Assembly: GCF_000427365.1 (NCBI RefSeq)
Contig: NZ_KE386488.1
Coordinates: 2,391,882-2,455,881 of the forward strand
DNA from: Rikenella microfusus DSM 15922
GTDB lineage: Bacteria > Bacteroidota > Bacteroidia > Bacteroidales > Rikenellaceae
Direction of reading: 5' to 3'
Length of the DNA: 64,000 bases
The notes below the pieces were generated by a model. It saw only the letters and a list, made by a program, of their open reading frames with translations. It ran no database searches and was not told where the DNA came from. Below, piece by piece: positions 1,669-42,342 of this stretch (its first letter is position 1; every line of letters begins with the position of its first letter). Position numbers and translations under genes: made by a program.

Positions 1669-3768
1669 TCAGCCGAGCAGCAGCGACGGATTGTTCAGAT
1701 CGCCTCCCCTCGGGTCGTTCTGCTGGAGCGGATAGATCAGGATGAAACTGTTGGCGCGGGCGTATTTGCTCAGGTAGGACGGCACCTGGTTCATGCTCTT
1801 GTGGTAGGACGGGCCTCCTTTGCGGCTCAGCACGGCCAGCAGGATGTCGTTGGCCCTGACCTCGCGCAGCAGGATCAGGAAATCGTCCCATTCGCTGAAT
1901 TCGTGGAATTCGGCTTCGATCGGGTTTTTGGCATGGATGGCCTTGATGCGTTCCAGCGTGTGGGCGGAGGCATAGAAGACGACCTTCGTGCTGGTGTTGC
2001 GCCCCATGTTCCAGACTTTAAGCATCCAGAGGGCGAATCCCAGTTCGTATTCCGCCCGGTCGGGCACGAAGACCAACAGGCGGCCGACGGTCGAAAGGGG
2101 TTGGACGGGTTTGTAAACCAGCGTGGTGACGTTGTTCTGAGACAGTACGCCCTCCGTTGTGGCGCTGGGGAACGATACGGTCGTTTCGTCGGAATTGTCC
2201 GGTTTGATGCCGAGGATCAGGTCGGTGATCTTCTGTTCGTGGATCGTGCTGACGATCGCGTTGGCGATATCCGAATCGTAACGCAGCAGTTCCTGCATCT
2301 CGTTGTCTGTGGCCGAGGCTGCGATCACCGCTTTTTCCAGCAGTCGTCTTCCCTGCCGGTCGGCGTCGCTGGCGGCATTGTCGTTCGATACGACGTGCAG
2401 GGCATATAGCCCGTTCCGGCTTCCTTTCGATTTGATGGTCACGCTCAGGTGGATCAGTTCTTCGGCAGTCCCCGGATGGCTGACCGGTATCAGGATCCGT
2501 TCCCGCGGGCCGTGTTTGTCCGGTTTGGCCGATGGTTCCGGAGCGTCGGTCAGGGCGATGTTGCGTGCCCCGCGCTGGGTGACGAAAGAGGAGACGGTGC
2601 ATGTAATCAGGATCATCAGAATCGTGCCGTTCAGTACGCTTTCGTTCAGCAGGCGTATCGGTTCGCCCGTTTCCGTATGGCCGGTGACGATGCCGTAGCC
2701 TACCATGACCGCGGCCAGCGTCGCCGCCGCCTGCGAGTTGCTCAGGCCGAAAACCAGCCGCCGCTGATCGATCGAATAGCGGAATGCCTTTTGCGTGGCG
2801 TATGCGGCCAGGAACTTGGCCCCGATGGCCACGACGGTCATCACGGTCGCCACTTTGATGGTTTCGAAGTCTTTGAAAAAGGCCCGGTAGTCGATCAGCA
2901 TCCCTACGCCGATCAGAAAGAACGGGATGAAGATGGCGTTTCCGACGAATTCGATCCGGTTCATCAGCGGCGATGTGCGCGGAATCAGCCGGTTCATCGC
3001 CAGCCCGGCCAGAAACGCCCCGATAATGGATTCGATGCCGGCCGCTTCGGCCAGAACGGCTCCCAGGAAAACGATAGCCAGCACGAATATGTATTGCGAC
3101 ACGTTGTCGTGGAACCGTTTGAAAAACCACCGGCCGACCAGCGGGAACAGCAGCAGGATGATGCCGGCGAACAGCACCAGCGATACGCCCAGCCGAATCC
3201 AGAACCCGTTGTCCACCGATCCGGCCGAAAGGCCGACGATGATGGTCAGCACCAGCAGCGCCAGTGTGTCCGTAATCATGGTGCCGCCGACGGTGATGGT
3301 CACGGCCGGGTTTTTCTGTACGCCCAGTTTGCTGATGATCGGGTAGGTGATGAGCGTGTGCGAAGCGAACATGCTGGCCAGCAGGATGGAGGTCAGTATG
3401 TTGAAATTCAGCAGATAGATCCCCGCCAGAATGCCGATCGCCATCGGTATGGTGAAGGTGAACAGGCCGAAGACGAGGCTCCGCCAGCTATTTTTCTTGA
3501 AATCCGCGATGTCGATTTCCAGTCCGGCGAGGAACATGATGTAGAGCAGCCCTACGGTGCCCGACATGATGATGCTGCTGTCGCGTTCCATCAGGTTGAA
3601 ACCGAACGGTCCGATCACGGCTCCGGCGATAATGAGTCCCAGCAGGTGGGGTATGCGTATTTTATTGAGAAGCAGGGGCGCCGAAAGGATGATAATCAGG
3701 ATCAGCAGGAATTTCAGCACCGGATTGGTCAGCGGCAATGTCAGGTCGATCAGGCTCAAAGGTAACAT
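1669..3768 (-). CDS. CPA2-family cation:proton antiporter with C-terminal UspA-like domains
   Basis: 699 residues. The first ~400 form about 12 membrane helices of a KefB/NapA-like monovalent cation:H+ antiporter (PF00999), with GTVGLLYIMFLAGLEID near residue 75 and GAFLAGLAMNR near 245. Residues ~420-690 are soluble and resemble two universal-stress-protein folds (RILIPVSHPGTAEEL, then LLVFVPDRAEYELGFALWML). This layout is common in Bacteroidetes. The expected role is exchange of Na+ or K+ for protons at the inner membrane, with the cytoplasmic domain sensing a nucleotide or stress signal. No TrkA-N domain is present, so it is not a classical glutathione-gated KefC. Confidence 0.88.
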   Translation of the reverse strand: MLPLSLIDLTLPLTNPVLKFLLILIIILSAPLLLNKIRIPHLLGLIIAGAVIGPFGFNLMERDSSIIMSGTVGLLYIMFLAGLEIDIADFKKNSWRSLVFGLFTFTIPMAIGILAGIYLLNFNILTSILLASMFASHTLITYPIISKLGVQKNPAVTITVGGTMITDTLALLVLTIIVGLSAGSVDNGFWIRLGVSLVLFAGIILLLFPLVGRWFFKRFHDNVSQYIFVLAIVFLGAVLAEAAGIESIIGAFLAGLAMNRLIPRTSPLMNRIEFVGNAIFIPFFLIGVGMLIDYRAFFKDFETIKVATVMTVVAIGAKFLAAYATQKAFRYSIDQRRLVFGLSNSQAAATLAAVMVGYGIVTGHTETGEPIRLLNESVLNGTILMILITCTVSSFVTQRGARNIALTDAPEPSAKPDKHGPRERILIPVSHPGTAEELIHLSVTIKSKGSRNGLYALHVVSNDNAASDADRQGRRLLEKAVIAASATDNEMQELLRYDSDIANAIVSTIHEQKITDLILGIKPDNSDETTVSFPSATTEGVLSQNNVTTLVYKPVQPLSTVGRLLVFVPDRAEYELGFALWMLKVWNMGRNTSTKVVFYASAHTLERIKAIHAKNPIEAEFHEFSEWDDFLILLREVRANDILLAVLSRKGGPSYHKSMNQVPSYLSKYARANSFILIYPLQQNDPRGGDLNNPSLLLG

Positions 3769-3795
3769 TACGGTTCAGGTTTGGATAGGAATCGT

Positions 3796-3803
3796 TACAT
3801 TTG
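3796..3803 (+). promoter_or_regulatory. -7 element (TACATTTG) for the ArsC-like gene
   Basis: TACATTTG lies 25 bp before the ATG at 3829 and matches the Bacteroidetes TAnnTTTG consensus. No good TTTG is seen at the -33 position. Confidence 0.5.
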
Positions 3804-3828
3804 CAATATAACTAAAATTACAACAAAA

Positions 3829-4188
3829 ATGAAGCCATTGTTCGTACATTATCCCAAGTGCGGTACCTGCCGCAAGGCCGTGAAATGGCTGGCGGAACAG
3901 GGAATCGAGGCGGAAACGCGTGATATAGTGGCCGATAAACCCTCTGCGGACGAGCTGCGGGAGTGGATCGCGGCGAGCGGGCTTCCGGTGCGTAAATTTT
4001 TCAACACGAGCGGCGTCCTGTATAAGGAGATGGGATTGAAAGACAAGCTGCCGGCGATGCCCGAAGCGGAGATGATCGCCCTGCTGGCGACCGACGGCAA
4101 ACTGGTCAAACGGCCTGTGCTGGTGCTGGCCGGCCGTGTGCTGGTCGGATTCGGAGAACAGGAGTGGCGGGCGGCGCTGGGACGGTGA
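3829..4188 (+). CDS. ArsC/Spx-family thioredoxin-fold protein
   Basis: 119 residues in the arsenate reductase (ArsC/YffB/Spx) family. The N-terminal strand is followed by YPKCGTCRKAVKWL, with the redox pair C11 and C14. The later segment KFFNTSGVLYKEMGLKDKLP matches the family's substrate-binding stretch, and LVKRPVLVL precedes the C-terminus. The CxxC pair favours an Spx/MgsR/YffB-like role over an arsenate reductase of known specificity. No other ars genes are nearby. The start at 3829 was chosen because the -7 element lies just upstream; the frame is open to 3781, but that would place the promoter inside the gene. Confidence 0.85.
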   Translation: MKPLFVHYPKCGTCRKAVKWLAEQGIEAETRDIVADKPSADELREWIAASGLPVRKFFNTSGVLYKEMGLKDKLPAMPEAEMIALLATDGKLVKRPVLVLAGRVLVGFGEQEWRAALGR

Positions 4189-4229
4189 GGATTGCCGAAA
4201 TGACAGACTACTAACACCAAAATGATAAG

Positions 4230-5057
4230 ATGGAAAAAGAAAATCTGTATGACCTTTCGGGGCGCGTGGCTGTCGTGACTGGCGGTTACGGCGTGCTGGG
4301 GGGCAGTATGGCCCTTTTCCTGGCTCGGCAGGGGGCGAAAGTGGCGATCCTGGGCCGCAATGCGGAGAAGGGCGAAGCCAAAGCGCGGGAAATCGCGGCG
4401 GCGACGGGCGGCGAAACGATGTTCCTGCAAGCCGACGTGCTGGATAAACCGGCGCTGGAACGAGCCTGCGCGAAACTGACGGCCGAGTGGGGCGCGGCGG
4501 ATATCCTGCTCAATGCGGCCGGCGGTAACCAGGCCGGGGCGACTATTGCGCCGGATCGGACGATCTTCGACCTGGATACCGATGCGATGCGCGGGGTGGT
4601 GGACCTGAACTTCATGGGGACGGTGCTGCCGACGCTGGTTTTCGGCAAGGCGATGGCCGATGCCGGACGCAAAGGAAGTATCGTCAATATTTCGTCGATG
4701 GCGGCTCAGGGGGTGATTACCCGTGTGGTGGGCTACTCGGCGTCGAAAGCGGCGATCGACAATTTCACCCGCTGGATGGCGGTCGAGATGGCCAAAAAAT
4801 TCGGCGAAGGCGTCCGGGTCAATGCCATTGCGCCCGGTTTCTTCCTGACCGAACAGAACCGCACGTTGCTGACCAATCCCGACGGCTCGCTGACCGACCG
4901 TTCGCGCGATATTATCGCGGCCACGCCTTACGGGCGTTTCGGGGAGCCGGAAGAGCTGAACGGCACGCTGGGCTGGCTGGCGTCCGATGCTTCGGCGTTC
5001 GTTACGGGCGTCGTGGTGCCGGTGGACGGCGGTTTTTCGATTTTCACGGGAGTTTGA
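4230..5057 (+). CDS. SDR-family D-mannonate oxidoreductase (fructuronate reductase type)
   Basis: 275-residue classical short-chain dehydrogenase. The cofactor motif TGGYGVLGG is at ~17-25, NAAG at ~95-98, catalytic Ser near 155, and YSASK with Y169 and K173. It sits directly before uxuA and uxaC, where enteric bacteria place the unrelated long-chain UxuB. The inferred reaction is NAD(P)H-dependent reduction of D-fructuronate to D-mannonate in the cytoplasm. Bacteroidetes and Thermotoga-like uronate operons use SDR enzymes for this step (family knowledge). Its TGA overlaps the first candidate ATG of uxuA, which points to translational coupling. Another sugar-acid SDR remains possible from sequence alone; the context decides the call. 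Confidence 0.82.
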
Positions 5058-6280
5058 TGCAAATGTTCAGAAGTATGGAAAACAATCGAGTACGTTTCGA
5101 ACAGACCATGCGCTGGTACGGGCCGAACGATCCGGTATCGCTCGCGGATATCCGGCAGGCCGGCGCCGAGGGCGTGGTCAGCGCGTTGCACCATATCGCG
5201 CCGGGCGAGGTGTGGACGGCGGACGAAATCGGACGTTACAAAGCGAATATCGAAGCGGCGGGGCTGACGTGGCATGTGGTGGAGAGTCTGCCGGTAAGCG
5301 AGGAGATCAAAACCCGACGGGGAGACTACCTGCGCCATATCGAAAATTACAAGGAGAGCCTGCGCAACTTGGCTGCCGCCGGGGTACCGGTGGTGACCTA
5401 CAATTTTATGCCCGTGCTGGACTGGACTCGGACGAATGTCGCCTACGAACTGCCCGACGGTTCGCGGGCGCTGCGGTTCGAGCGGTCGGCTTTCGTCGCG
5501 TTCGACCTCTATATCCTCGGGCGGCCCGGAGCCGAGAGGGATTACAGCGCGGAAGAGGTGGCGAAAGCCAGGGCGCGTTACGAACGGATGACCCCCGAGG
5601 AGATCGAAACGCTGACGGCCAGCGTGTTGATGGGGTTGCCGGGAGCGGACGAGAGCTTTTCGCTGGAGAATATCCGTTCCGGATTGGAGTTGTATAAGGA
5701 CGTTACCGATGCCCGGCTGCGGGAACATCTCGTTCTGTTTCTGAAAGAGGTGGCTCCGGTGGCGGACGAGGTCGGCGTGCGGCTGGCTATCCATCCGGAC
5801 GACCCGCCGTACCGTTTGCTGGGTCTGCCGCGCATCATGAGCTGCGCGGCGGATTTCGCGCAACTTACGGAGGCGGTACCGAACGCCTCGAATGGGTTGT
5901 GTTTCTGCACGGGATCGCTCAGCATTCGGGCGGACAATGACCTGCCGGCCATGGCCGAACGGTTCGGGAATGAGGGGCGTATCCATTTCGCCCACCTGCG
6001 CAGTACGCAGCGCGATGCCGAAGGGAATTTTTACGAAGCCAATCACCTGGAGGGGAGCATCGACATGTACGCGATCATGCGTGTGCTGGTCGAGGCGATG
6101 CAGCGTACCGGGCAGCCGATTCCGCTGCGCCCGGACCACGGGCATCAGATGCTCGACGACCTGAACAAGAAAACTTATCCCGGCTATTCGGCGATCGGAC
6201 GCCTTAAAGGGCTGGCCGAGCTGCGGGGATTGGAGCTGGGGATCGGGCGGACGCTGTTTCCCGAAACCGACAAAAAATAG
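5057..6280 (+). CDS. uxuA: mannonate dehydratase
   Basis: Dehydrates D-mannonate to 2-keto-3-deoxy-D-gluconate (KDG) in glucuronate breakdown. Family stretches are recognisable throughout: [60 protein letters not shown] and [12 protein letters not shown], which supply metal ligands and active-site residues. Length from 5057 is 407 residues against about 394 in E. coli. The extra residues are N-terminal, so starts at 5063 or 5075 are also possible; the 5057 ATG overlaps the preceding stop codon. The protein is cytoplasmic. It is in an operon with the SDR oxidoreductase and uxaC. Confidence 0.95.
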
Positions 6281-8784: not shown

Positions 8785-9381
8785 TCAGGCCGCATACCGG
8801 TTCCGGAACAGGTAGAACACCCCCCTCGATACTTGGTATTCCCGGCAGATATGCGCGATCGACGTTCCCTGTTTGAGCAGGTTCAGTATTCGTTTTTTGT
8901 CGTCGATCAGCCTTTGCAGCTTGACCCGGCTGCCGACCGGCCTTCCGATGCGTACCCCCTCCGCTTTTTTGAGCGCCAGCGCCTCTTTCGTGCGCAGCGA
9001 GATCAGGTTGTGTTCGATTTCCGCCACCAGCCCGAAAGCGAACGCCAGCACCTTGCTATTGATATTGTTATCGAACGCATAGCCGTCCTTGGTGCTGTAA
9101 ATCATGATTTGTTTTTCCATGCAGATATTGAGGATCGACATGATATCCAGCAGCGTGCGGCTCAGGCGCGAGAGTTCGGTAACGATCAGCGTATCCCCCT
9201 TTTTGAGTTTTCGGATCAGCAGTCCCAGCCGTCTTTCGTTGCGTTTGGTTTTTCCGCTGACCACCTCCGTGACCCATTTGTCGATTTTGATGCCCCGCGT
9301 TTCCGCGAACCGGGCGATTTCCAGTTGTTGGTTTTCGAGATGCTGTTTTTCAGTGCTGACTCTCAGGTATGCGATAACCAT
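8785..9381 (-). CDS. Mpi-type serine site-specific recombinase (DNA invertase)
   Basis: 198-residue small serine recombinase. YLRVSTEKQ at residues 5-13 holds the nucleophile S9 and conserved R7. ELSRLSRT follows near 70 and AEIEHNLISLRTKEAL near 120. The C-terminal ~45 residues form a helix-turn-helix (IAHICREYQVSRGVFYLF). The sequence closely resembles the Bacteroides fragilis multiple-promoter invertase Mpi (family knowledge). It probably flips the segment at 9588-9778, whose 21-bp inverted repeats have the dyad form of serine-recombinase sites. The invertible promoter now points toward this gene, with its expected start point about 235 bp upstream. No other TAnnTTTG element is seen in the leader. 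Confidence 0.92.
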   Translation of the reverse strand: MVIAYLRVSTEKQHLENQQLEIARFAETRGIKIDKWVTEVVSGKTKRNERRLGLLIRKLKKGDTLIVTELSRLSRTLLDIMSILNICMEKQIMIYSTKDGYAFDNNINSKVLAFAFGLVAEIEHNLISLRTKEALALKKAEGVRIGRPVGSRVKLQRLIDDKKRILNLLKQGTSIAHICREYQVSRGVFYLFRNRYAA

Positions 9382-9587
9382 GATAAGAAAGAATTAGGTA
9401 CATAAAATAATATAAAGTAAGTCTGATACGGTTTTGTGTCGTCGGGCGTAAAGCCGGATATATTTCAGTCGTGCGGTTGCAATCGAACAAACATTTCTGA
9501 GGATAAAGACGGCGGTACGTCCGTAATAGTCTGTGTATAGTAAATATAGCTATAAATGAGACTTTTTGTTGGCAAAAAGTACCCGTT

Positions 9588-9608
9588 CAATTAACCGTTC
9601 GATTAATT
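9588..9608 (+). repeat. left inverted repeat of the invertible segment
   Basis: C followed by AATTAACCGTTCGATTAATT. The site is itself a near-perfect dyad, AATTAACCG-TT-CGATTAATT, with a central TT as expected for a serine-recombinase crossover site. Confidence 0.85.
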
Positions 9609-9621
9609 ACTAATTGTGTCA

Positions 9622-9653
9622 CAAATGTAGAAAAGGAAATTGTATTCACCAAA
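9622..9653 (-). promoter_or_regulatory. promoter inside the invertible segment
   Basis: On the minus strand: TTTG (9650-9653), 20 bp, then TACATTTG (9622-9629). It faces the invertase gene. Predicted transcription start near 9615. Confidence 0.75.
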
Positions 9654-9757
9654 TAAAAACTGACTTAAATAACCTTTTATCAATCGGATACCTACTATTT
9701 CTGACATGATAAACGGTTTTTTACGCGGTCTCGCCGGGGGGTGTTTTTTCGCTTTAC

Positions 9758-9778
9758 AATTAATCGAACGGTTAATTG
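9758..9778 (-). repeat. right inverted repeat of the invertible segment
   Basis: Exact reverse complement of 9588-9608. The central dinucleotide reads AA here and TT at the left site, which favours inversion. Confidence 0.85.
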
Positions 9779-9839
9779 TAAGGTCTGCCGCTGTAACCCG
9801 TTGGTTTGCAGCGGGCAGCATGGCGGGTATAATGCAGAC

Positions 9840-10976
9840 ATGACGAAGATGAAACGCTATTTAGTGGTCGCTGCCGCATTATTGGCAGTTGCGGGGTGTC
9901 AGCGTCGTCCGCTGGAGTGGGGCGATCCGGCCGGCGAAAACTGCCGGGTGCGCTTCCGGGCCGGCAGTCTGGCCGAAGTGTTGCCTGCCCCGGAAACCTC
10001 GAAAGCGTCCGGACAGCTCGTCCCCTTGCCCGAAGGCGCCACCGTGCGCGTGGTGGCCTACCAGCGGCAGGGCGACGGCCAGGGCAGTCCCGACCCCTCC
10101 CTCGATACGTGGAAAGCTTCCAGTACTTATAAAGTGGAGAGCGGCGACTTGGTTCCGTGCCTTGTCAGCGACGACGGCGCCGCGATTCCCGGCGACGCCG
10201 AAAGCATGGAACTGCACAACGGAACCTATGATTTCTACGCCTACTCCGCCGCCCGCAAGCTGGAAGCCGACAACCGCACCGTGAAAGGCGTGGGCCACGG
10301 CGAAGACTTCATGGGCGCATTCATCGGCAGCCGGACCATAAACCGATCCTCGTCCACTGTCAGCCTCGAATTCGAGCACGAATGCGCCAAGATCACCTTC
10401 GCCATCGTCCCCGCCGACGGGATGCAGTGCGAAGACCTGACCGCAACGAGCGTAAAACTGAAAAAACTGGCCGCCGCCCCCGCCGCCGACTATACCATAG
10501 GCGGCGACCTCGTGCCGAGCGTCGGCGGCGAAGAATCCGTCGGCGAAATCACCACGTTCGCTTACAAAGACGACGGACAGAAAGGCCAGGGCGCCAGCGG
10601 CTCCGGCATCTTTCTGCCCAAAACGGCCGGCACCGTTCCGGCTGAATTTACCGTGCGGGTGAACAGTACATCCTACCGGCTGACAGCCGAACTGCCCGAA
10701 ATCTCTTTCGGAAAAGGGAACAACTACCGATTTACCGCCAAAGTCAAACAGACCAGCGTGGAGCTGGTGCTCACGGTGCTGCCGTGGGACACCTCCGAGT
10801 GGGGCGACGGCACGGAGATCGGCGGATTTCCGGACCAGACCATCACGGTCGGCGAATGGAGCGGGGTATCGTGGGACGACGATGCCGTCGGCGCCGATCC
10901 CTCGCAAGGGTTGGTTGTCGGGACGTGGACTTCCGCCCCCTCGTGGGGCAGCGACACGCAGGTCGGCGGAAACTGA
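9840..10976 (+). CDS. fimbrillin family (Mfa-like) lipoprotein
   Basis: 378 residues. A lipoprotein signal peptide (RYLVVAAALLAVAGC) puts the lipidated Cys near residue 20. The body has the beta-rich pattern of Mfa-like fimbrillins (PF13149): an early strand pair, YDFYAYSA near 145, FEHECAKITFAIVP near 190, and a final RFTAKVKQTSVELVLTVLPW strand. Fimbrillins are exported as lipoproteins and polymerise or anchor at the outer membrane. It is the first gene of a two-gene operon downstream of the invertible promoter. An ATG at 9849 is an alternative start; the frame is open to 9741 but that part crosses the recombination site. Whether it is a stalk, anchor or accessory subunit is not clear. Confidence 0.82.
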   Translation: MTKMKRYLVVAAALLAVAGCQRRPLEWGDPAGENCRVRFRAGSLAEVLPAPETSKASGQLVPLPEGATVRVVAYQRQGDGQGSPDPSLDTWKASSTYKVESGDLVPCLVSDDGAAIPGDAESMELHNGTYDFYAYSAARKLEADNRTVKGVGHGEDFMGAFIGSRTINRSSSTVSLEFEHECAKITFAIVPADGMQCEDLTATSVKLKKLAAAPAADYTIGGDLVPSVGGEESVGEITTFAYKDDGQKGQGASGSGIFLPKTAGTVPAEFTVRVNSTSYRLTAELPEISFGKGNNYRFTAKVKQTSVELVLTVLPWDTSEWGDGTEIGGFPDQTITVGEWSGVSWDDDAVGADPSQGLVVGTWTSAPSWGSDTQVGGN

Positions 10977-11045
10977 CCTGTCGGCCGCATTTTCCGTGCG
11001 GGAAAACGACAAATCATTACGAAGTAAATAACAGTTCGGTAAAAT

Positions 11046-13412
11046 ATGAAAAGAATATTTTTATGGATGACTTCGGCCGCGACGGTGCTCGCCGTGTCAT
11101 GTAATAAAAGCGAACTCCAGCAGCCCGGCGGCGGAAACGGCGGACGGAATCCGCTGACCGTCCGCGTGAGCTTCGATACCGGAACGCCCTCCGTTCCCGG
11201 CGGCGCATGGCGTCCCGTGGCCAAAAGCGTTAGTCCGGCTGTGAGCATCGAATACGGCGCAGGGGCGGTTCCCGAAACCCGTGCCGTTACCGCGTTGGAC
11301 GACCAGAACGAAAAGACGGTGCATGACCTTTGGGCCTTGCAGTACACAGAGCAAGGTGCTCTGGTCGGCGAGCCTTTCTATACCGACCGGATTCAGCAGA
11401 GCGACGCTTCCGTGACCGTCGAGATCAACCTGACCTCCAGCGAAGGCAAAACCAACAGGGTCTATTTCGTGGCCAATACCGGCGACAAGAGCCTGTTCAA
11501 CGCTTCGAACGCCGCCACCGAGACCGCTTTCCAAAACCTGAGCCGGACGCAGACTGCGGAATACAAACCCAGCTCGGCGACCGGCCTGCTGATGAACGGC
11601 CTGTACAGCGGTACGGTGGGGGCCGAGATGAACGGCGTGACCCTGAAACGAGGAGTGGCCAAAGTGAATTTTTCGTACACGACCGACAGCGAATTCGGTA
11701 AAAAATTCACCGTCGAATCCGTGACGTTGAAGAATGCCGCCAACAAAATCCATTACGTCAAGACCGCTTCCGCCCCGTGGCCTGACGCCGACGCGTCGAA
11801 TCACACCTCGTATCCTGCCGAAACGCTGGGCGGCGACCCGAAAACGGGTTCTTATACCTGGTACCTGCCCGAAAACCTCCAGACAGCGGTGAAAAACGCG
11901 AAAGGCGAGGGGTGGGCCACCTACATCGAGATCGCGGGGAGGTGGACCGGCCACGGCGACGGGCTGCCCCGGAACGTAACCTATTACATCCCTGTGGGCA
12001 GCGACGGCGTGACGCAGACGAATTACAGCGTGGAGCGGAACAAAATCTATACCGTTTCCGTTACGCTCAAAGGAGCCAACGACGCCGATACTCGCGTGAA
12101 AGTGGAAGAAGCCGTAACTCCCGTTCTGGCGAACTGCGGGATGGTGGTTCCGGGCGGTCAGGTGGCTTTCAGCGTCGAAGACCGCCAAAAGAAACTCATC
12201 GAAACCGAGGCCGCGAGCCTGCCCCTGAAAAGCTGGAGTAAAAGTACGGACTACACGGCTTACCTGATCTGGCAGGACGCGCAGTCGCTGGTGAGCAGCG
12301 TCGAGTACAACAAGGCTCTGGGATACGTTGTCGTCAAAACCGCTTCCGGAAAGAGCGGCAACGCCGTGGTGGGGCTTTTTCCCGCGGGGACCCAGCAAAG
12401 TCAAGCGCGAACGGCGAATTGCATCTGGAGTTGGCACGTGTGGGTTACCAACTACCACCCCGACGGTACAAAAAAGTACAATTTGGGCATAAATCAAAAA
12501 GCGTCCGAAAGTACCGGTCAGGTACATACTTATGGGGCGAAATATATGGCTGCCGTGAATGCGGTAAAACCTACCACAGGATATAGTAACAGCAATATCC
12601 GCGTAATAATGGACCGTAATCTGGGGGCCACGAAGACTTATTATACGGCTCCGGCTTCAGGGGATAACACGGCCGACCAGGCTTTCGGGATGTTTTACCA
12701 GTGGGGTCGCAAAGACCCGTTCCCGCGCGCTACGGGTGCCGATATAGATCCTTCGAGCGCCACCAGCGAGACCATTAATATCTACGATATAGATAATCAA
12801 ATACTGACCGAAGACGGTACTGGATATAAGAAAACGGATATTAAGACCGGAGGTGTGGTATCGGGCAATAACTCGTTGGGTTATGCAGTGTCTCATCCGC
12901 TGGTATTTATATATAACAGTACCACTCCTTACGACTGGTATGCGACTTCGGAAAGTAATCAGAACGACGCTTTGTGGGGTGACAAAGCAGAAAAGAAGAG
13001 CGTTTACGACCCCTGCCCGGAAGGTTGGCGCATCGCGCCGAACGAGACTTGGAGTGATTTTAGCCGCACTACGATCGCTACTTCGCCACTGAACGGTACG
13101 TTCCCGTACTATATCAAAGGCGACCCGAAAGAGGACGGTAAATCAGGCGATTACGGTATGACCAACGGCCGCCTGTACAAGGTATCGTCTTCGGGCGAGG
13201 GCACCCCGCTGGCCTGGTATCCCGCCCCGGGCTACCGCTACGGCGCCAGCGGCGCATTGTACGGCGTCGGCAACTACGGGTACAGCTGGTCGTCCACGGT
13301 CGCCGCTAGCGGGTATGGCGCCCACTACCTGTACTTCTACACGCAGGGCCTCAATCCCACTAACGCGAGCAGCCGTGCCAGCGGCTTACAGGTGCGGTGC
13401 CTCCAAGAATAA
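11046..13412 (+). CDS. fimbrillin-type lipoprotein with DGR-diversified C-type-lectin-like C-terminus
   Basis: 788 residues. A lipoprotein signal (FLWMTSAATVLAVSC) is followed by Mfa-like domains to about residue 360 and a linker. A C-terminal domain with VIMDRNLGATK (~520), MFYQWGRKDPFPRAT (~552) and YDPCPEGWRIAP (~655) resembles the FISUMP/formylglycine-enzyme fold used by DGR target proteins. The last 63 residues (from 13221) are the variable region, ending in GLQVRCLQE. Variable codons are almost all NNC (TAC, GGC, GCC, AGC, CAC), as expected when AAC codons of a template are mutated at adenine. It is probably a surface or pilus-tip adhesin that binds variable ligands. It is the second gene of the phase-switched operon. 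Confidence 0.85.
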   Translation: MKRIFLWMTSAATVLAVSCNKSELQQPGGGNGGRNPLTVRVSFDTGTPSVPGGAWRPVAKSVSPAVSIEYGAGAVPETRAVTALDDQNEKTVHDLWALQYTEQGALVGEPFYTDRIQQSDASVTVEINLTSSEGKTNRVYFVANTGDKSLFNASNAATETAFQNLSRTQTAEYKPSSATGLLMNGLYSGTVGAEMNGVTLKRGVAKVNFSYTTDSEFGKKFTVESVTLKNAANKIHYVKTASAPWPDADASNHTSYPAETLGGDPKTGSYTWYLPENLQTAVKNAKGEGWATYIEIAGRWTGHGDGLPRNVTYYIPVGSDGVTQTNYSVERNKIYTVSVTLKGANDADTRVKVEEAVTPVLANCGMVVPGGQVAFSVEDRQKKLIETEAASLPLKSWSKSTDYTAYLIWQDAQSLVSSVEYNKALGYVVVKTASGKSGNAVVGLFPAGTQQSQARTANCIWSWHVWVTNYHPDGTKKYNLGINQKASESTGQVHTYGAKYMAAVNAVKPTTGYSNSNIRVIMDRNLGATKTYYTAPASGDNTADQAFGMFYQWGRKDPFPRATGADIDPSSATSETINIYDIDNQILTEDGTGYKKTDIKTGGVVSGNNSLGYAVSHPLVFIYNSTTPYDWYATSESNQNDALWGDKAEKKSVYDPCPEGWRIAPNETWSDFSRTTIATSPLNGTFPYYIKGDPKEDGKSGDYGMTNGRLYKVSSSGEGTPLAWYPAPGYRYGASGALYGVGNYGYSWSSTVAASGYGAHYLYFYTQGLNPTNASSRASGLQVRCLQE
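13220..13412 (+). repeat. DGR variable region VR1 (expressed copy)
   Basis: Homology to VR2 and VR3 begins exactly at TCCCGCCCCGGGCTACCGC (13220-13238) and continues past the stop codon. Variable codons are mostly NNC; invariant codons such as TGG, CTG, CAG, GTG and CGG lie between them. Together with its 3' flank to 13506 it forms the left arm of a ~290-bp inverted repeat with 14094-14386. Confidence 0.82.
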
Positions 13413-13446
13413 GGAGCTGCGCGCCGCGGCGGATAAGGCCGCACAA

Positions 13447-13482
13447 GCGAGGCAAAGCCTCGCCCCGCGGGATACCCGCGGG
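13447..13482 (+). other. paired hairpins just after VR1 (candidate DGR recognition structure)
   Basis: Two adjacent perfect stems: GCGAGGC-AAA-GCCTCGC (13447-13463) and CCCGCGGG-ATA-CCCGCGGG (13464-13482), 35 bp after the stop codon. A hairpin or cruciform just downstream of the VR aids target recognition in the Bordetella phage DGR (established). The same pair is present after VR2 (14118-14153). Confidence 0.6.
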
Positions 13483-13506
13483 CAGGCCGAAGAGGCCGCG
13501 CGGGCA

Positions 13507-14093
13507 GCGTGTTTGAGGCGGCCGGAAGGTATTAGCGGCGGGCTTGTAGGCCCGCCGCCCCAAATGGCGGCCTTTGGCCGCCCGAATTTTCCGCATTTTT
13601 TGCCGGTGGCTTTTGGAGGCGGGTTTGCCGGGACTTTGCGGTTTTTGCGGGATATGCGGTGGGCTTTGTTTCCGAGGTGGGGTTGTTTTTGAGGCTTTGC
13701 GTTGTTGGGAGTGCGCGGCTTTTTGCGCTGTTTTAACGTTGTTTTGAGTTGTTGTCGGGGCTTGTTAGAGCTGGTTCCGGGCCTCCGCTGCCGGAGGCCC
13801 GCCTGCTGACGCGGGAACGTTATTTAAGCCCTACGGTTTATTGCGATGTTCTCCCTTAGTCAGGCCGGAGCCACCCCGGCGACGGCCTGCAACTCGCGAT
13901 GCTCGTTTGGGCCTCGCTGGCTCCGGCCGTAATATTTAACCGTAGGGTTTTGCGCATCGGATCGCAGCCTGCGGGGCACGTGAACGAGCTTTGCGAGTCA
14001 GCGGGCCTCCGCTGCCGGAGGCTGCGGCCCGTCCGCTGGCGCGGGAATGTTATTTCAACTGTACTTTTAAAGCGAAGACGGGGGGAGGGAAGT
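13507..14093. repeat. spacer between VR1 and VR2 with mosaic repeat modules (block 1)
   Basis: No gene seen. 13595-13775 is rich in G and T on the plus strand and poor in A and C. Palindromes include GGCGGGC-TTGTAG-GCCCGCC near 13534. From 13784 there are repeat modules: a GGGCCTCCG/CGGAGGCCC hairpin, then module A (13837-13949: TTAGTCAGGCCGGAGCCACC to GGCTCCGGCC), then a second GC-rich hairpin module to about 14060. Module A recurs almost unchanged at 27795-27905. Confidence 0.7.
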
Positions 14094-14386
14094 TGCCCGC
14101 GCGGTCTCTTCGGCCTGCCCGCGGGTATCCCGCGGGGCGAGGCTTTGCCTCGCTTGTGCGGCCTTATCCGCCGCGGCGCGCAGCTCCTTATTCTTGGAGG
14201 CACCGCACCTGTAAGCCGTGGCCGCGGGCGTGCGTGTAGACGGGATCGAGGTCTGTCGAGTAGAAGTTCAGACCGAGGCCGCGGGAATCGCTGGTCGCCG
14301 CCGACCAACTGCACCCGCTGCCGCCGACGTACCGCGCCACGCCCTCATAGCCCGTCCGGCCGAAGTCGCGGTAGCCCGGGGCGGGA
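14094..14386 (-). repeat. DGR variable region VR2: inverted, silent C-terminal cassette with 3' flank
   Basis: On the minus strand it encodes PAPGYRDFGRTGYEG to GHGLQVRCLQE followed by TAA (coding 14385 down to 14188; 65 residues against 63 in VR1). It has no start codon or upstream gene body. The 3' flank matches that of VR1, with one mismatch noted, through both hairpins to GCGCGGGCA. The 19-bp 5' boundary (14368-14386) is the exact inverse of 13220-13238, so inversion between them would join this cassette in frame to the adhesin gene. Confidence 0.82.
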
Positions 14387-14766
14387 ACGGAGGATTATTG
14401 TTCATTGGATGATACGATACGGAGGAGTGCTTACGACGCTGTTGGGCCAGCCGGTGTAAAGCTGTGGATTTTTGCCTGTGCTATTCCGCTGATTTTACGG
14501 CTGGCCGAAGGGCTTCAGCGTCGTGCGCTCCTTTTTTATTTTTAATCGGGTATATACGATTGCAGTCGGGATCGGTTCCGGTGGCCGTCGTTTTGTGGTA
14601 TGCAGAGGCCTGTTTTAATCCGGCTCTAATTCGATTTTCCGGCATTTTTGGGGTTGCCTCCCGGTTTGTTTTATGTCATTATATGTATTGTGAATAATGC
14701 GGTGTGTATCAATCTTATATGCCTGTTTCTGGCATAGGTTGGTCGGGTCGCAAGGCTTGTATTGTT

Positions 14767-14774
14767 TATTTTTG
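14767..14774 (+). promoter_or_regulatory. candidate -7 element of the DGR operon
   Basis: TATTTTTG, 88 bp before the first gene of the DGR operon. No matching -33 TTTG at the right distance. The rest of 14387-14862 shows no gene. Confidence 0.35.
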
Positions 14775-14862
14775 TGACATTCTTTCTGCGGTCTTTTCCG
14801 AGTAATTTTTTACTTTTATCCCCGCAGGACACCGTGTTCGCCATTCAAAAAACTATTGCGTT

Positions 14863-15483
14863 ATGACCCTACAGGAAATACTTGCGGCCGAAAACCGCAA
14901 CACGGATAAAATATACCTTCATCTGGAAGGGATTTTCTGGAAGGCTTACGAACGGTCGGCGTTCGCTTTTATCCACCGTATCTCTCGTTATAAGGCTTCC
15001 AAACGATTTGTCAAATATCTCGACGCCGAGGTGGTGTCGGTGGGTTTTCCCGACGCTTCGCGGGCGAAAGTGCTGGGCGACAGGCCACTGGAAACGGAGA
15101 AGGCCGATATGCTGGTACTCGGTACGGGGACGATCGACGCGGAGGAGTACGGACGATGGAAAGAGGCGATTCCGTTGGTTGTTTCCAAGCCGGCGGGGAT
15201 GCCGTCGCCGGTGTTCGGGACGCTTTACGGCGGTGTCCCTCGCCAGATGGTAATTCCGGTACCCGACGCGGAGTCGGTTCCCCGGCGCGTGCCTGCGGCT
15301 CCGTTGTCGTCCCGTTCTTCGGAGGCGGGGAGTACCGGGTCGTATCCTGCGGCGGCGTCCGAAACGTCGGTCGGCGAGGCCGTCTTGCGCGATCTCCGTA
15401 ATTTCAGTGTGGAAAATGCCACGCCGCTGGAGTGTCTTCTGTTCGTCTCTTCTTTAAAAAAGCAGCTCAATGGCAATATATGA
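14863..15483 (+). CDS. conserved DGR-associated protein of unknown function
   Basis: 206 residues; no function recognised. The N-terminal ~130 residues look conserved and folded (DKIYLHLEGIFWKAYERSAF, then KRFVKYLDAEVVSVGFPDASRAK). Residues ~140-175 are low-complexity and rich in Ser, Ala and Pro. A short C-terminal helix follows (LECLLFVSSLKKQL). No signal peptide or membrane helix is seen. It overlaps the start of the Avd-like gene by 14 bp, so it is almost certainly in the DGR operon. Accessory proteins of unknown function occur beside Avd in several DGR classes. A role in template RNA or cDNA handling is a guess from context only. Confidence 0.7.
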   Translation: MTLQEILAAENRNTDKIYLHLEGIFWKAYERSAFAFIHRISRYKASKRFVKYLDAEVVSVGFPDASRAKVLGDRPLETEKADMLVLGTGTIDAEEYGRWKEAIPLVVSKPAGMPSPVFGTLYGGVPRQMVIPVPDAESVPRRVPAAPLSSRSSEAGSTGSYPAAASETSVGEAVLRDLRNFSVENATPLECLLFVSSLKKQLNGNI

Positions 15484-15853
15484 CAATCTGGAGGTCTTTA
15501 AGGCCAGTTACGATCTGTTGCTTTATGTTTTCCAGTTTACGCCGAATGTGAAGCGGGATTACCGTTATACGTTGGCGGAAAAAATCAAGGACAATATCAT
15601 CGAGCTTTGTCTTTGCATCTATCGGGCGAACGGCGCCAAGGATCGGGTGCCGGATATACGGCAGGCCCGCGAACGGTTGGTGACGATCAAACTGATGTGC
15701 CGCATGCTGACGGATCTGAAGCAGATTTCGGTCAGGCAGTTCGCGGTGGTGTGTACGTATACGGAGTCGATCTCCCGTCAGTTGCAGGCCTGGCAACGGT
15801 ATTCCGAGAAGGTGAAGGCCGAACAGCAGGCTGCGGCGGTACCGCATGCCTGA
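15470..15853 (+). CDS. avd: Avd-like four-helix-bundle protein of a diversity-generating retroelement
   Basis: 127 residues, all-helical. The sequence (LEVFKASYDLLLYVFQFTPNVKRDYRYTLAEKIKDN, then CIYRANGAKDR and LKQISVRQFAVVCTYTESISRQLQ) matches the Avd / 23S-rRNA-intervening-sequence four-helix bundle family. In the Bordetella phage DGR, Avd forms a basic pentamer that binds the reverse transcriptase and template RNA and is required for mutagenic homing. It overlaps the preceding gene by 14 bp and lies about 1 kb before the reverse transcriptase. Stand-alone four-helix proteins of this fold also occur in other contexts, so the neighbourhood makes the call. Confidence 0.88.
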   Translation: MAIYDNLEVFKASYDLLLYVFQFTPNVKRDYRYTLAEKIKDNIIELCLCIYRANGAKDRVPDIRQARERLVTIKLMCRMLTDLKQISVRQFAVVCTYTESISRQLQAWQRYSEKVKAEQQAAAVPHA

Positions 15854-16905
15854 GGCTGTGTGGGAGGAGAGTTTTCGGATGGCGTTGCCGTGTTTGCCGC
15901 CCTGCCGGTTCTTTATGCATACGATTCGAGAGGACGCAGTATTAAAAGCGGATGATTAATCGTCCGCGTAGCGGGCAGGCCGAACCGACGCGGCTGCCGA
16001 GCGCCGTCGAATTTGTTCGTATGGCCGAGGCGCCAGGAGGAAACCGGAAGGGCAACCCGCCTCCGGCCCCGCAGGGACGGTTGGGAAGATCACCGCCTGA
16101 TTTTGGGTAAAGCCGTATATAGTCATTCACAATTAAATATTCAGCAAAAATCCAGCGACCTTTGATTGCGCGGGCCGGAAGCCTCCCCACGGGAGGCCCG
16201 GTGCCGCTGGGCACTCCCGCCGGGCTGTAAGTGCCCTATTCCCGCAGACTGCGGCCCTATGCAAGAAACCGTACTTTTAATTTGCAGGTTAAAGCCCGGA
16301 GCCAGCGAGGGCAAAACCGTAGGTTTCAGCCCTTCGCCGGGGGTGGCTCCGGGCTGACCGCTGACGCGGAGACTGATTTTAAATCGTAGGTTTAAAAAGT
16401 ACTCCCGGTTTCTTACATTGGTATCGAAGTACGGGTAAAGGCTGCCAACCCGGGAATGTGCGATTTTCCGTTCCGACGGGAGTCGGGAGCGGGGAATAGC
16501 ATTCCCGGCGAGTTTTTTGCCTTCTTTTTTGCTCGCCCCAAAAAAGAAGGTGCCCCGCCGGCATGAGGCGTCCGGAGAAACCGGTGCCCTCGCGGCATGA
16601 GCGGGCGAAGAAAAACGAACGCCCGTCGGCGATAGACATATAAATAAACCTATGGTTAAAATATAAGTTTCCGCGTTAGCGGGCGGGCCGCAGACTCCCG
16701 CAGCGGAGGCCCGCAAAATCAATTGCTCACGCGATTGTTGCGTTCCCCGCAGGCCGCGGCCCTTGGCAAACATAATATTAATCCTACGGTTTTTTAGTTT
16801 CTGCGATTTCGAAGAATCGTCGGGTTTCGCGCCTAAGCGGTCGGTTTCCTGGCGGCGATGCAAAATATATAATCGGGTTCGCAAATTCGAATATGACGGA
16901 ATCCT
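15854..16905. repeat. gap between avd and RT: mosaic repeat modules (block 2), no template repeat seen
   Basis: No protein gene is supported. It contains the 22-mer motif (16099-16120), a GC-rich module with the GGGAGGCC/GCCTCCC palindrome (16155-16275), module A in inverted orientation (about 16267-16395), module B (about 16396-16665, with the covarying CCTTCTTTTTTG / CAAAAAAGAAGG stem) and another GC-rich module to about 16795. DGRs usually carry the template repeat here. I find no AAC-rich copy of the variable region. Confidence 0.65.
16099..16120 (+). repeat. 22-mer motif, copy 3
   Basis: GATTTTGGGTAAAGCCGTAT plus AT. See the copies at 7769-7790 and 8729-8750. Confidence 0.5.
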
Positions 16906-18411
16906 ATGGCGGAAAATAAAACGGAACGATCCGATACGTTGCTCGAAGACCTTTTCAGGGCTTATTTCGATGCCCGCAGGCACAAGCGGAACACGCGTAA
17001 CCAATTGCGTTTCGAAATGGATCTCGAAGCCAACCTGATCGAGTTGTACGATCAGATCCGTAAGCGGGAGTATCGGGTGGGGCCGAGTGTCTGTTTCATA
17101 GTCGAACATCCGGTCAAACGCGAGATATTCGCCGCCGATTTCCGCGACCGGGTCGTGCATCATCTGCTGTTCAATTATATCGCGCCGTTGTTCGAGCGTA
17201 CTTTCATTACGGACAGTTATTCCTGCCTCAAGAATAAAGGTACGCTGTACGGTGTCGAACGCCTGGAGCATCATATCCGTTCGTGTTCCGACAATTACCG
17301 GCAGACGTGCTATGTCCTGAAACTCGATATACAGGGGTATTTCATGAATATCAACCGCCGGATCATGTACGAGACCATCGAACGGGTGATGCTCAAAATG
17401 GGACCGCGGCAGTCGCACCGGGGAAGACCGTGGAATGAACTGCTGGACTACGATTTGGTCCTGTACCTGCTGCGGGAAGTGGTTTTTAACGATCCGACGG
17501 AAAATTGCATCGTGCGCGGCAGCCGTTCCAAGTGGGCCGATCTGCCTCGCAGCAAGAGCCTTTTCACATCGCCGGCGGATTGCGGCCTGCCGATTGGCAA
17601 TCTGACTTCCCAGCTGTTCAGCAATATCTATCTGAATGATTTCGACCATTTCGTCAAACGCAAGCTGAAACACAAGCATTATGGTCGGTATGTGGATGAT
17701 TTTTACATCATCCACCGGGATAAAGAACTGCTGAAAAGGCATATCCGCGAGATCGACGCTTATTTACAGGAAAACCTGGGGCTGACGTTGCATCCGAAGA
17801 AGATCTATCTTCAGGAAATTTCCAAGGGGGTTACGTTTCTCGGCGCTGTGGTGAAACCTTACCGGCGTTATATGGTCAATCGTACGCGGAACCATTTCAG
17901 CGAACTGCTGGCGGCGATGAATGCCTATATTCGTACGCATCCCAGACCGTCGAAAACGTTTCTGATCTATATGCAGGCGGCGATGAATTCGTATCTGGGG
18001 TATATGACGCACTATAAGTGTTACAAGATGAAACTGAAGCTGGTTCCGCGTATGGGCGAGGTGCTGAAACTGGGTTCCCTGACCCATAATATGACGCGTT
18101 ACCGGCTGAATCGGGATATCCGTGAACGGCTCGGTCTCGACGGCCGTGCGGATGCGTTGCCGTGGGAGATGGAGTGCCTGCCGTTGCCGCGTGAACAGGC
18201 GGACGAGGATTTCGTTCCGGACGATGACGGGGACTGGGCGTCCCGTCGCCAAATGGCCGATGAGACAGACGCCCTGCTCTTCGGAGAGGAGCAGGGCGCG
18301 GAAAGAGCGCGGCCGGAGGAGAAGGTACCTCGGGGATGCGATGCCGGACGTCCGTCCGGTACCGGGAACGGCGAACCGCCGGCGGCCGGGGAAGGGCAGG
18401 GCGGTGTTTAG
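16906..18411 (+). CDS. DGR-type reverse transcriptase
   Basis: 501 residues. Reverse-transcriptase motifs are in order: DRVVHHLLFNYI (~81), KLDIQGYF with the first catalytic Asp at 141, the DGR signature IGNLTSQLF at 230-238 (other RT groups usually have a QG form here), and the active-site YVDD at 262-265, followed by TLHPKKIYLQ and FLGAVVKPY. DGR reverse transcriptases copy a template RNA with errors at adenines, and the cDNA replaces a variable region in a target gene. No maturase, intron or retron features are present. The protein is longer than usual, with a ~100-residue acidic, disordered C-terminal tail. It ends convergently, overlapping the next gene's end by 4 bp. Confidence 0.92.
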   Translation: MAENKTERSDTLLEDLFRAYFDARRHKRNTRNQLRFEMDLEANLIELYDQIRKREYRVGPSVCFIVEHPVKREIFAADFRDRVVHHLLFNYIAPLFERTFITDSYSCLKNKGTLYGVERLEHHIRSCSDNYRQTCYVLKLDIQGYFMNINRRIMYETIERVMLKMGPRQSHRGRPWNELLDYDLVLYLLREVVFNDPTENCIVRGSRSKWADLPRSKSLFTSPADCGLPIGNLTSQLFSNIYLNDFDHFVKRKLKHKHYGRYVDDFYIIHRDKELLKRHIREIDAYLQENLGLTLHPKKIYLQEISKGVTFLGAVVKPYRRYMVNRTRNHFSELLAAMNAYIRTHPRPSKTFLIYMQAAMNSYLGYMTHYKCYKMKLKLVPRMGEVLKLGSLTHNMTRYRLNRDIRERLGLDGRADALPWEMECLPLPREQADEDFVPDDDGDWASRRQMADETDALLFGEEQGAERARPEEKVPRGCDAGRPSGTGNGEPPAAGEGQGGV

Positions 18412-41887: not shown

Positions 41888-42099
41888 GCACCTATGCCGG
41901 ATAACATCCGGCGATGGAATTTCCGGTTACTTTACCGTTTAAGTTCTGCATATGTCCGGGACGGAATCTGTCTCCGGCCGGTTCCGCGTCTTGTCGCGCA
42001 AGGCTATGCCAAGTTCGGCGAAAGGATAGATCCGGACGTGCCGGGAAAGCGCCGGATACGACTATCGATATATGAACGCGTGTAAGTGTCTGAGATTTA

Positions 42100-42342
42100 T
42101 CCCGCCCCGGGCTACCGCGACTTCGGCCGGACGGGCTGTGAGGGCGTGGCGCGGTGCGTCGGCGGCAGCGGGTGCAGTTGGTCGTCGTCGGCCAGCAATT
42201 CCCGCGGCCTCGGTCTGAACTTCTACTCGACAGACCTCGATCCCGTCTACACGCCCGCCCGCGGCCACGGCTTACAGTGCGGTGTCTCTAGGAATAAGGA
42301 GCTGCGCGCCGCGGCGGATAAGGCCGCACAAGCGAGGCGAAG
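42100..42342 (+). pseudogene. orphan, decayed DGR variable region VR3
   Basis: Homology to VR1/VR2 begins at the same TCCCGCCCCGGGCTACCGC boundary (42100-42118) and stops within the first downstream hairpin (GCGAGGC, about 42338). It has no target-gene body and no visible start for one. Against VR2 it has seven substitutions in the variable body, all non-synonymous and all at codon positions 1 or 2. At the end, a 1-base deletion in CAG(G)TGCGG and three changes destroy the conserved C-terminus. It lies between the porin and the exuT-like gene, 28 kb from VR2. Confidence 0.75.

Follow-up and report, generated by a model that had tools for sequence, protein, structure and literature searches.

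DGRs are described as systems in which one local template feeds one or several targets, and in Bacteroides fragilis the invertase Mpi controls invertible promoters. The BPP-1-type DGR consists of a reverse transcriptase (RT), the accessory protein Avd, adenine-restricted copying from a template (TR) to a variable region (VR) at the 3′ end of the target gene, and a hairpin downstream (PMC3240598); the TR of BPP-1 lies between avd and a structured 3′ spacer, which is followed by brt (PMC12875486). DGRs of Bacteroides are described, in a citing paper (PMC12632263), as acting on the tip adhesins of type V pili. The TR at the RT locus serves remote targets in the trans-acting DGRs of Thiohalocapsa PB-PSB1 (PMC10907252) and likewise in T. 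denticola and cyanobacteria (PMC4891356, PMC7517822). In the available part of the MetaCSST survey (PMC6642488), DGRs with more than one TR are recorded, and most DGRs with multiple VRs have a single TR. A large DGR survey (PMC8144416) counted a locus only if a repeat lay no more than 1 kb from the RT, so that loci like the one reported here would be missed.

Here we describe a locus of Rikenella microfusus DSM 15922, lying within a window of 64,000 nucleotides (the whole stretch of DNA that was analysed), which very probably encodes a fimbrial tip adhesin that is diversified by a DGR and switched ON or OFF by an invertible promoter, with an RT/Avd locus served by remote TR genes in trans. The locus shares with BPP-1 a DGR RT, Avd, adenine-restricted copying, a 3′-terminal VR in the target and a downstream hairpin, whereas its TR is a separate remote gene with a conserved structure on the 5′ side. 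As in the Bacteroides pilus DGRs, known through the citing paper, the target is tip-pilin-like, judged by sequence families, and the host is a gut Bacteroidales; what the Rikenella locus has in addition is a promoter switch and many remote templates. Its parts would work between loci, as in Thiohalocapsa PB-PSB1, T. denticola and cyanobacteria, but here the target is the neighbour of the RT, and the templates, of which there are several, are remote. With its several TRs in a single genome, the Rikenella DGR resembles the multi-TR DGRs of MetaCSST, although arrays in which 5 to 14 leader-TR units feed a single VR are not described in that part of the survey. Judged from sequence, this would be a known kind of DGR in a new form, in which many templates act in trans on a single target, with the usual direction reversed and some templates hundreds of kb distant. 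All the parts named in the preliminary description (invertase, invertible promoter, fimbrillin, adhesin, inverted VR-like copy, Avd and RT) were present, and the features are as follows.

8785–9381, minus strand: Mpi-family serine invertase (NF009949, Resolvase Pfam)
9583–9608, plus strand: left arm of the inverted repeat (IR) of the invertible segment, 92% complementary to the right arm
9622–9653, minus strand: Bacteroidales-type promoter TTTG-N20-TACATTTG, a perfect motif inside the IR-bounded segment
9758–9783, minus strand: right arm of the IR, with 149 nt between the arms
9849–10976, plus strand: fimbrillin-like lipoprotein (Mfa_like_2, E 4e-21; Mfa_like_1, E 5e-19)
11046–13412, plus strand: tip-adhesin-like DGR target protein, 788 aa, with a FISUMP C-terminus, from family matches
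13220–13406, plus strand: VR1, variable region at the adhesin 3′ end, an adenine-restricted copy of remote TR1
13416–13508, plus strand: GC-rich hairpins just 3′ of VR1, as expected for the target site of a DGR, and lacking at TR1
14190–14386, minus strand: silent VR-type cassette, intact, an open 65-aa alternative C-terminus
14863–15483, plus strand: conserved accessory protein, candidate MSL (MutS domain I-like), from MutS_I matches in homologues
15470–15853, plus strand: Avd accessory protein (bAvd, 46.8 bits; PHROG Avd, 6.5e-22)
15854–16905, no strand: Avd-RT gap of 1 kb without TR or leader, where relatives carry TR arrays
16906–18411, plus strand: DGR reverse transcriptase (PHROG RT, 4.9e-99)
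42098–42297, plus strand: second silent VR-type cassette, frameshifted, near-identical to that at 14190–14386

The RT carries IGNLTSQ at 230 and YVDD at 262, in agreement with the [I/L/V]GxxxSQ and YxDD motifs of DGR RTs, and the genome gave no other match of this type. PADLOC matches reflected generic similarity to defence RTs, and assignment as a defence gene was rejected. Among the accessory proteins expected of a DGR (Avd, HRDC or MSL), Avd was present and MSL is a further candidate; the candidate MSL gene precedes Avd in every close relative, and MutS_I was matched in two of nine homologues (best E 0.0019). The adhesin matched FimA (E 5.5e-5) and Fib_succ_major/FISUMP (E 2.4e-6). As to the C-type-lectin fold looked for in a DGR target, the FISUMP match at its C-terminus was weak, and two low-confidence structure models of this region (pLDDT 36 and 40) gave no fold match in the PDB. 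No sequence relatives in the PDB were found for the adhesin domain or for the 206-aa ORF.

No TR was detected in the 15854–16905 gap or in the rest of the window by an A-tolerant scan, nhmmer or the leader model. The template of VR1, TR1, is a stand-alone gene at G000:C2:2146144-2146332, 259 kb from VR1, and the distance from the RT to the nearest TR is 262 kb; the closeness of TR and RT usual in DGRs, which is customary but not mechanistically defining, is thus missing here. VR1 and TR1 align over a 187-nt run with 16 internal mismatches, all 16 at TR adenines and none at other bases (p 3.7e-11). The mismatches fall at codon positions 1 and 2 only, with zero at the third, and TR1 holds 14 AAC codons. 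Letting A vary in the template gave a much better account of the VR than letting C, G or T vary, with values of 3.4 versus 16–17 for VR1, and of 5.3 versus 23–24 and 8.6 versus 18–21 in two further cases. As expected of TR/VR pairs in DGRs, the variation is adenine-restricted, and these data strongly supported the adenine mutagenesis claimed in the preliminary description; the spread of changes over all bases and codon positions that would have spoken against it was looked for and not seen. The 3′ ends also differ in the manner of IMH and IMH*: the VR ends in CCAAGAATAA followed by hairpins, and TR1 in CCAAGTATTTATCG with no hairpins (DNA fold z of −4.5 downstream of VR1 versus +0.9 at TR1). 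Other adhesins (C2:24069, 21462 and 2104210) were rejected as TR1 targets, with many non-A differences or no alignment. Two more templates were located, TR2 at 691337 and the degenerate TR3 at 530672; no expressed VR matching either was found in the Rikenella genome, and both may be idle. TR1 and TR2 each have their own TAnnTTTG promoter, the box of TR1 being TAACTTTG.

TR1, TR2 and TR3 each carry a covarying structured 5′ leader, which had no match in Rfam. A leader motif has exactly two occurrences in the genome, one before TR1 and one before TR2, each at a distance of about 105 nt (control, 0). The predicted fold has 22 pairs, 13 of them with two-sided changes, and 94.3% of the cells were paired, versus 18–47% on sliding. 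Among 150 Rikenellaceae genomes, 20 carry the leader, with as many as 20 copies per genome, and it tracks the DGR RT (18 of the 20 leader genomes also have the RT; Fisher 3e-15). On the 3′ side of the TR, only about 25 nt are conserved. The conserved 5′ leader suggests that RT recruitment can act from the 5′ side, in contrast to the 3′ spacer of BPP-1. This leader also provides a handle for finding templates without knowing their targets.

In relatives, arrays of 3 to 14 TRs lie between Avd and RT, together with dispersed TR genes, so that one adhesin might be rewritten from many sources. For the expressed VR of G113 (Alistipes), the donor TR sits on a different contig and aligns over 187 nt with 22 changes, all of them at A. 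The expressed VR of Alistipes muris likewise has its donor on a different contig (C5:81327; 144-nt run, 12 A changes). Because several relatives are fragmented MAGs, "a different contig" is only a lower bound on the donor distance. In two VRs the sequence resembles a mosaic of templates, the signal in G057 being modest (10.2 versus 14–15). The donor of the G004 VR fits in part only, and for the G081 adhesin VR no template was matched and no A signal was seen. A relic DGR, now inactive, in which the local TR array was lost, TR1, TR2 and TR3 were stranded and VR1 had been written from an RT-adjacent TR1-like template, would be consistent with the empty 1-kb gap, the degenerate TR3 and the lack of a VR partner for TR2. 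We consider this unlikely, because VR1 equals TR1 at every non-A site over 187 nt, the RT remains complete, catalytic motif included, TR1 retains its leader and promoter, and the remote TRs of G113 and A. muris are the donors despite the presence of local arrays.

The TR1-VR1 relation, its remoteness, the leader conservation, the multi-TR relatives and the remote donors in two genomes are read directly from the sequence. We infer that the TRs are transcribed and act in trans, that the DGR is active and that templates are switched repeatedly. In the proposed mechanism, the RT/Avd locus, lacking a template of its own, would receive template RNA in trans from stand-alone chromosomal TR genes; the RT would copy the TR RNA, erring at adenines, and the mutated cDNA would replace VR1 at the adhesin 3′ end, VR1 at present carrying a copy of TR1. 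In related species, the expressed VR would be open to overwriting from any of many TR genes. It is quite possible, though we propose it tentatively, that the Rikenellaceae DGR performs RNA-guided cassette switching, in which structured template RNAs compete to overwrite one adhesin gene. If so, template choice would fix the scaffold and adenine errors would tune it, and the adenine-poor cassettes, which in G021 form a tandem run of as many as 101, would represent an archive of fixed variants. It thereby becomes testable whether bacteria pair template choice with hypermutation, as antigenic-variation archives pair switching with mutation.

The silent cassette at 14190–14386 has a VR-type 3′ end and a hairpin, and was copied from neither TR1 nor TR2; its non-A differences and VR-type 3′ end led us to reject it as a TR. 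With this cassette as donor, shufflon- or vls-like DNA recombination without the RT might vary the C-terminus, and the intact, in-frame state of the cassette, the 22-bp inverted repeat at the VR 5′ ends and the tandem cassettes of G021 agree with such a process. We regard it as very improbable, since fixed-cassette recombination does not yield changes confined to adenines, and inverted cassettes were not found in the loci of relatives. The preliminary description had claimed C-terminal exchange with the inverted spare, which was unsupported: VR1 is a clean 187-nt TR1 copy without any silent-cassette segment. Near-identical inverted arms are situated between the two VRs (VR1 and the inverted cassette), so that recombination there would invert the spacer alone. 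An ordinary single-template DGR whose remote TR1 stems from faulty assembly or annotation is hardly credible, despite the canonical leader-TR-RT order in the closed genome G058, since TR1 lies inside a 2.69-Mb contig with housekeeping genes on either side, TR clusters occupy the syntenic site in G057 and G049, two further Rikenella assemblies, and TR2 and TR3 are remote too.

Upstream of the adhesin operon, all the components of an Mpi-type invertible promoter were found, namely the invertase, the IRs and a promoter between them. The invertase scored 265.6 bits against NCBIfam NF009949 (cut-off 272; E 2.7e-79) and matched the Resolvase Pfam (E 2e-33). The promoter is directed away from the fimbrial operon, that is, OFF in the present assembly. 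An IR-bounded promoter between an Mpi gene and a fimbrillin gene also occurs in five other Rikenella loci. In a comparison across Rikenella species, the promoter module pointed toward the fimbrillin (ON) in three loci (G008, G041:C112 and G063:C292) and away from it (OFF) in six, the window among them; the occurrence of both orientations across the genus supported the promoter inversion claimed earlier, and the promoter presumably flips in vivo. The three-layer mechanism of the preliminary description thus keeps its promoter switch and adenine mutagenesis and loses the exchange with the spare, and its template proves to be remote and one of several. The Mpi-family invertase, the IR-flanked promoter and the control of a surface structure resemble the Mpi-controlled promoters of B. 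fragilis, from which the Rikenella switch differs in being coupled to a DGR target operon. Elsewhere in the genome, 69 near-matches to the IR core were found, versus 0 in the control, suggesting that the invertase is not reserved for the adhesin locus.

The window occupies C2:2391882-2455881, on the large contig of a 2.88-Mb genome in two contigs whose nearest named relatives are Rikenella MAGs, placing it in or close to Rikenella, and contains all parts named in the preliminary description: an Mpi-family invertase, an inverted repeat, a fimbrillin lipoprotein, a FISUMP-ended adhesin, an inverted VR-like copy, Avd, and RT. The features needed here are as follows.

11046-13412, adhesin gene
13220-13406, VR1, the variable region at the 3' end of that gene
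14190-14386, minus strand, inverted copy (VR-type cassette, or spare C-terminus)
15470-15853, Avd
16906-18411, RT

Every close relative keeps, upstream of its Avd, the 206-aa ORF that lies here between the adhesin and Avd. Two of nine homologues gave weak matches to MutS domain I (best E 0.0019), which would fit MSL, a known DGR accessory (PMC10053308). In the RT, IGNLTSQ represents the DGR motif and YVDD the catalytic one, and this genome has no second match of the same kind.

A template repeat (TR) is a required part of any DGR. None was found in the window by an adenine-tolerant scan, a cassette profile, or a leader model. A genome search with VR1 revealed a 91% identical repeat, TR1, at C2:2146144-2146332, in a non-coding gap between folP-like and mqnD-like genes (names judged from ORF appearance); the distance to VR1 is 259 kb, and to RT about 262 kb. 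All 16 internal mismatches fell on adenines of TR1 (10 A>G and 6 A>T; chance probability, 4e-11), while a 17th lay at the 3' junction. Only codon positions 1 and 2 were changed, and 12 of the 13 altered residues were Asn in TR1, which has 14 AAC codons. These data established the TR1-VR1 relation and its distance at the sequence level and strongly supported the proposed adenine mutagenesis of the adhesin; the evenly spread changes named beforehand as its refutation were absent. Two more repeats lie outside genes: TR2 (C2:691337-691531), which is likewise AAC-rich, and TR3 (at 530672), which is degenerate. A weak leader-model match at C2:2128843-2129024 (E 5e-5), where cassette searches gave no TR cassette, is possibly an orphan leader.

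A 27-nt motif occurs exactly twice in the genome (control, 0), about 105 nt before TR1 and TR2, and is part of a longer structured leader. Thirty leaders of Rikenella and Alistipes share 22 pairs, 13 of them with changes on both sides, and 94.3% of alignment cells paired, vs 18-47% with the partner slid one to three columns, demonstrating conservation of the leader among these sequences. No match was found in Rfam. The final helix closes immediately 5' of the TR, and conservation ends about 25 nt after it, often with a short hairpin and a T-run, indicating that the structured part lies 5' of the template, whereas that of BPP-1 lies 3' (PMC12875486). Promoter-type boxes are located 201 nt upstream for TR1 (TTTG-N20-TAACTTTG) and 204 nt upstream for TR2 (TACCTTTG).

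In related loci, arrays of TR-like cassettes stand between Avd and RT.

TR-like cassettes between Avd and RT
Rikenella MAG that carries the complete locus (L035), 5
Alistipes muris DSM 112343 (L041), 8
Paludibacter sp. 221 (L050), 8
Other Alistipes, 10 to 14

A leader covariance model matched 20 of 150 Rikenellaceae genomes, with a highest copy number of at least 20, and, outside the family, four genomes from a sample of the order. RT was present in 18 of the 20 leader-bearing genomes vs 8 of the 130 without a leader (Fisher 3e-15), and these counts established the leader/RT co-occurrence; the multi-TR relatives are likewise established by sequence. In nine genomes, leaders lay on contigs other than that of RT or far off on the same contig (up to 340 kb in G081). 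The closed genome G058 represents the plain form, a single leader-TR adjoining RT, with a VR that is its copy with 15 A changes. The remote sites are old, which argues against misassembly: where TR1 stands here, the relative G057 has four TRs or more and G049 has seven or more, and the TR3 site corresponds to a TR site of G057. Of the differences between the array cassette L039:6424-6614 and its neighbor (6004-6193), 16 fall on A and 6 elsewhere, a pattern that mutagenic retrohoming could have left by overwriting a TR. Dispersed GC-rich palindromic repeats (CGGGCCTCCGCTGCCGGAGGC; window 13778-13798, 14002-14022, and 16668-16716) occupy the gaps where the array stands in relatives, and are possibly a scar of array loss.

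The donor of each expressed VR was sought as the template best explaining it with changes permitted at one base only. The cost for VR1 was 3.4 with A freed vs 16-17 with C, G, or T freed. The G113 VR (5.3 vs 23-24) derived from a TR on another contig, with 22 A changes and no other within a 187-nt run, yet eight TRs adjoin RT in that genome. In the A. muris VR (8.6 vs 18-21), the 3' 144 nt likewise derived from a TR on a different contig; five clustered non-A differences stand in the first 45 nt, as if these were the remainder of another template. The G057 VR matched a remote TR over its 5' 77 nt and an array TR thereafter (10.2 vs 14-15), lending modest support to a mosaic of two templates. 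The L074 and L050 VRs were each copied from one local-array member, templates fitted the G004 VR in part, and none fitted the G081 VR in this test. Remote donors of expressed VRs were established by sequence; we infer transcription of the templates, action of this RT in trans, and repeated template switching. Trans targets of DGRs are on record (PMC10907252, PMC4891356, PMC7517822), and so are multi-TR DGRs (PMC6642488). No template arrays or dispersed template libraries were found in open-licence papers, and we provisionally regard both as new.

The promoter TTTG-N20-TACATTTG lies within inverted repeats and is directed away from the fimbrillin (OFF). At other Rikenella loci, the same module points away in five more cases and towards the fimbrillin in three. 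The suggested promoter inversion is therefore supported by the occurrence of both orientations across species, and flipping in vivo would be expected. The inverted-repeat core AATTAACCGTTCGATTAAT has 69 near-matches in the genome vs 0 in the control, which makes it probable that the invertase acts at several sites. Some near-matches make inverted pairs 100-600 bp apart, and many further switches are possible. At the Alistipes DGR loci searched, no adjacent Mpi gene was found; the switch-DGR link thus looks typical of Rikenella, and G021 adds one more case.

As a VR-type cassette, the inverted copy has an open frame of 65 aa, a VR-type end, and a hairpin. The preliminary description made it exchangeable with the adhesin C-terminus, a view that is not supported: VR1 shows no trace of it, and no counterpart was found at the relatives' loci. 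Comparison also ruled it out as a copy of TR1 or TR2. A second silent cassette, intergenic, near-identical, and frameshifted, is located at window 42098-42297. Silent VR-type cassettes also lie downstream of RT in L036, seven of them in a row (3580-5570) with ends CLQE plus stop. In G021, 101 cassettes extend over 23 kb from the adhesin gene to RT; these (C1:401828-425010; L171, L212) are adenine-poor and tandem, with a period of about 212 bp. Roughly 5 kb upstream of that adhesin is a gene for an Mpi-like invertase (63% identical). On one reading, silent cassettes would form an archive. A second fimbrial operon of the R. microfusus genome (C2:18291-24258, L032) comprises a fimbrillin-like gene, then two adhesins with FISUMP-like C-termini; these are homologous to VR1 and diverged at non-A sites too, suggesting that they were not recently DGR-edited.
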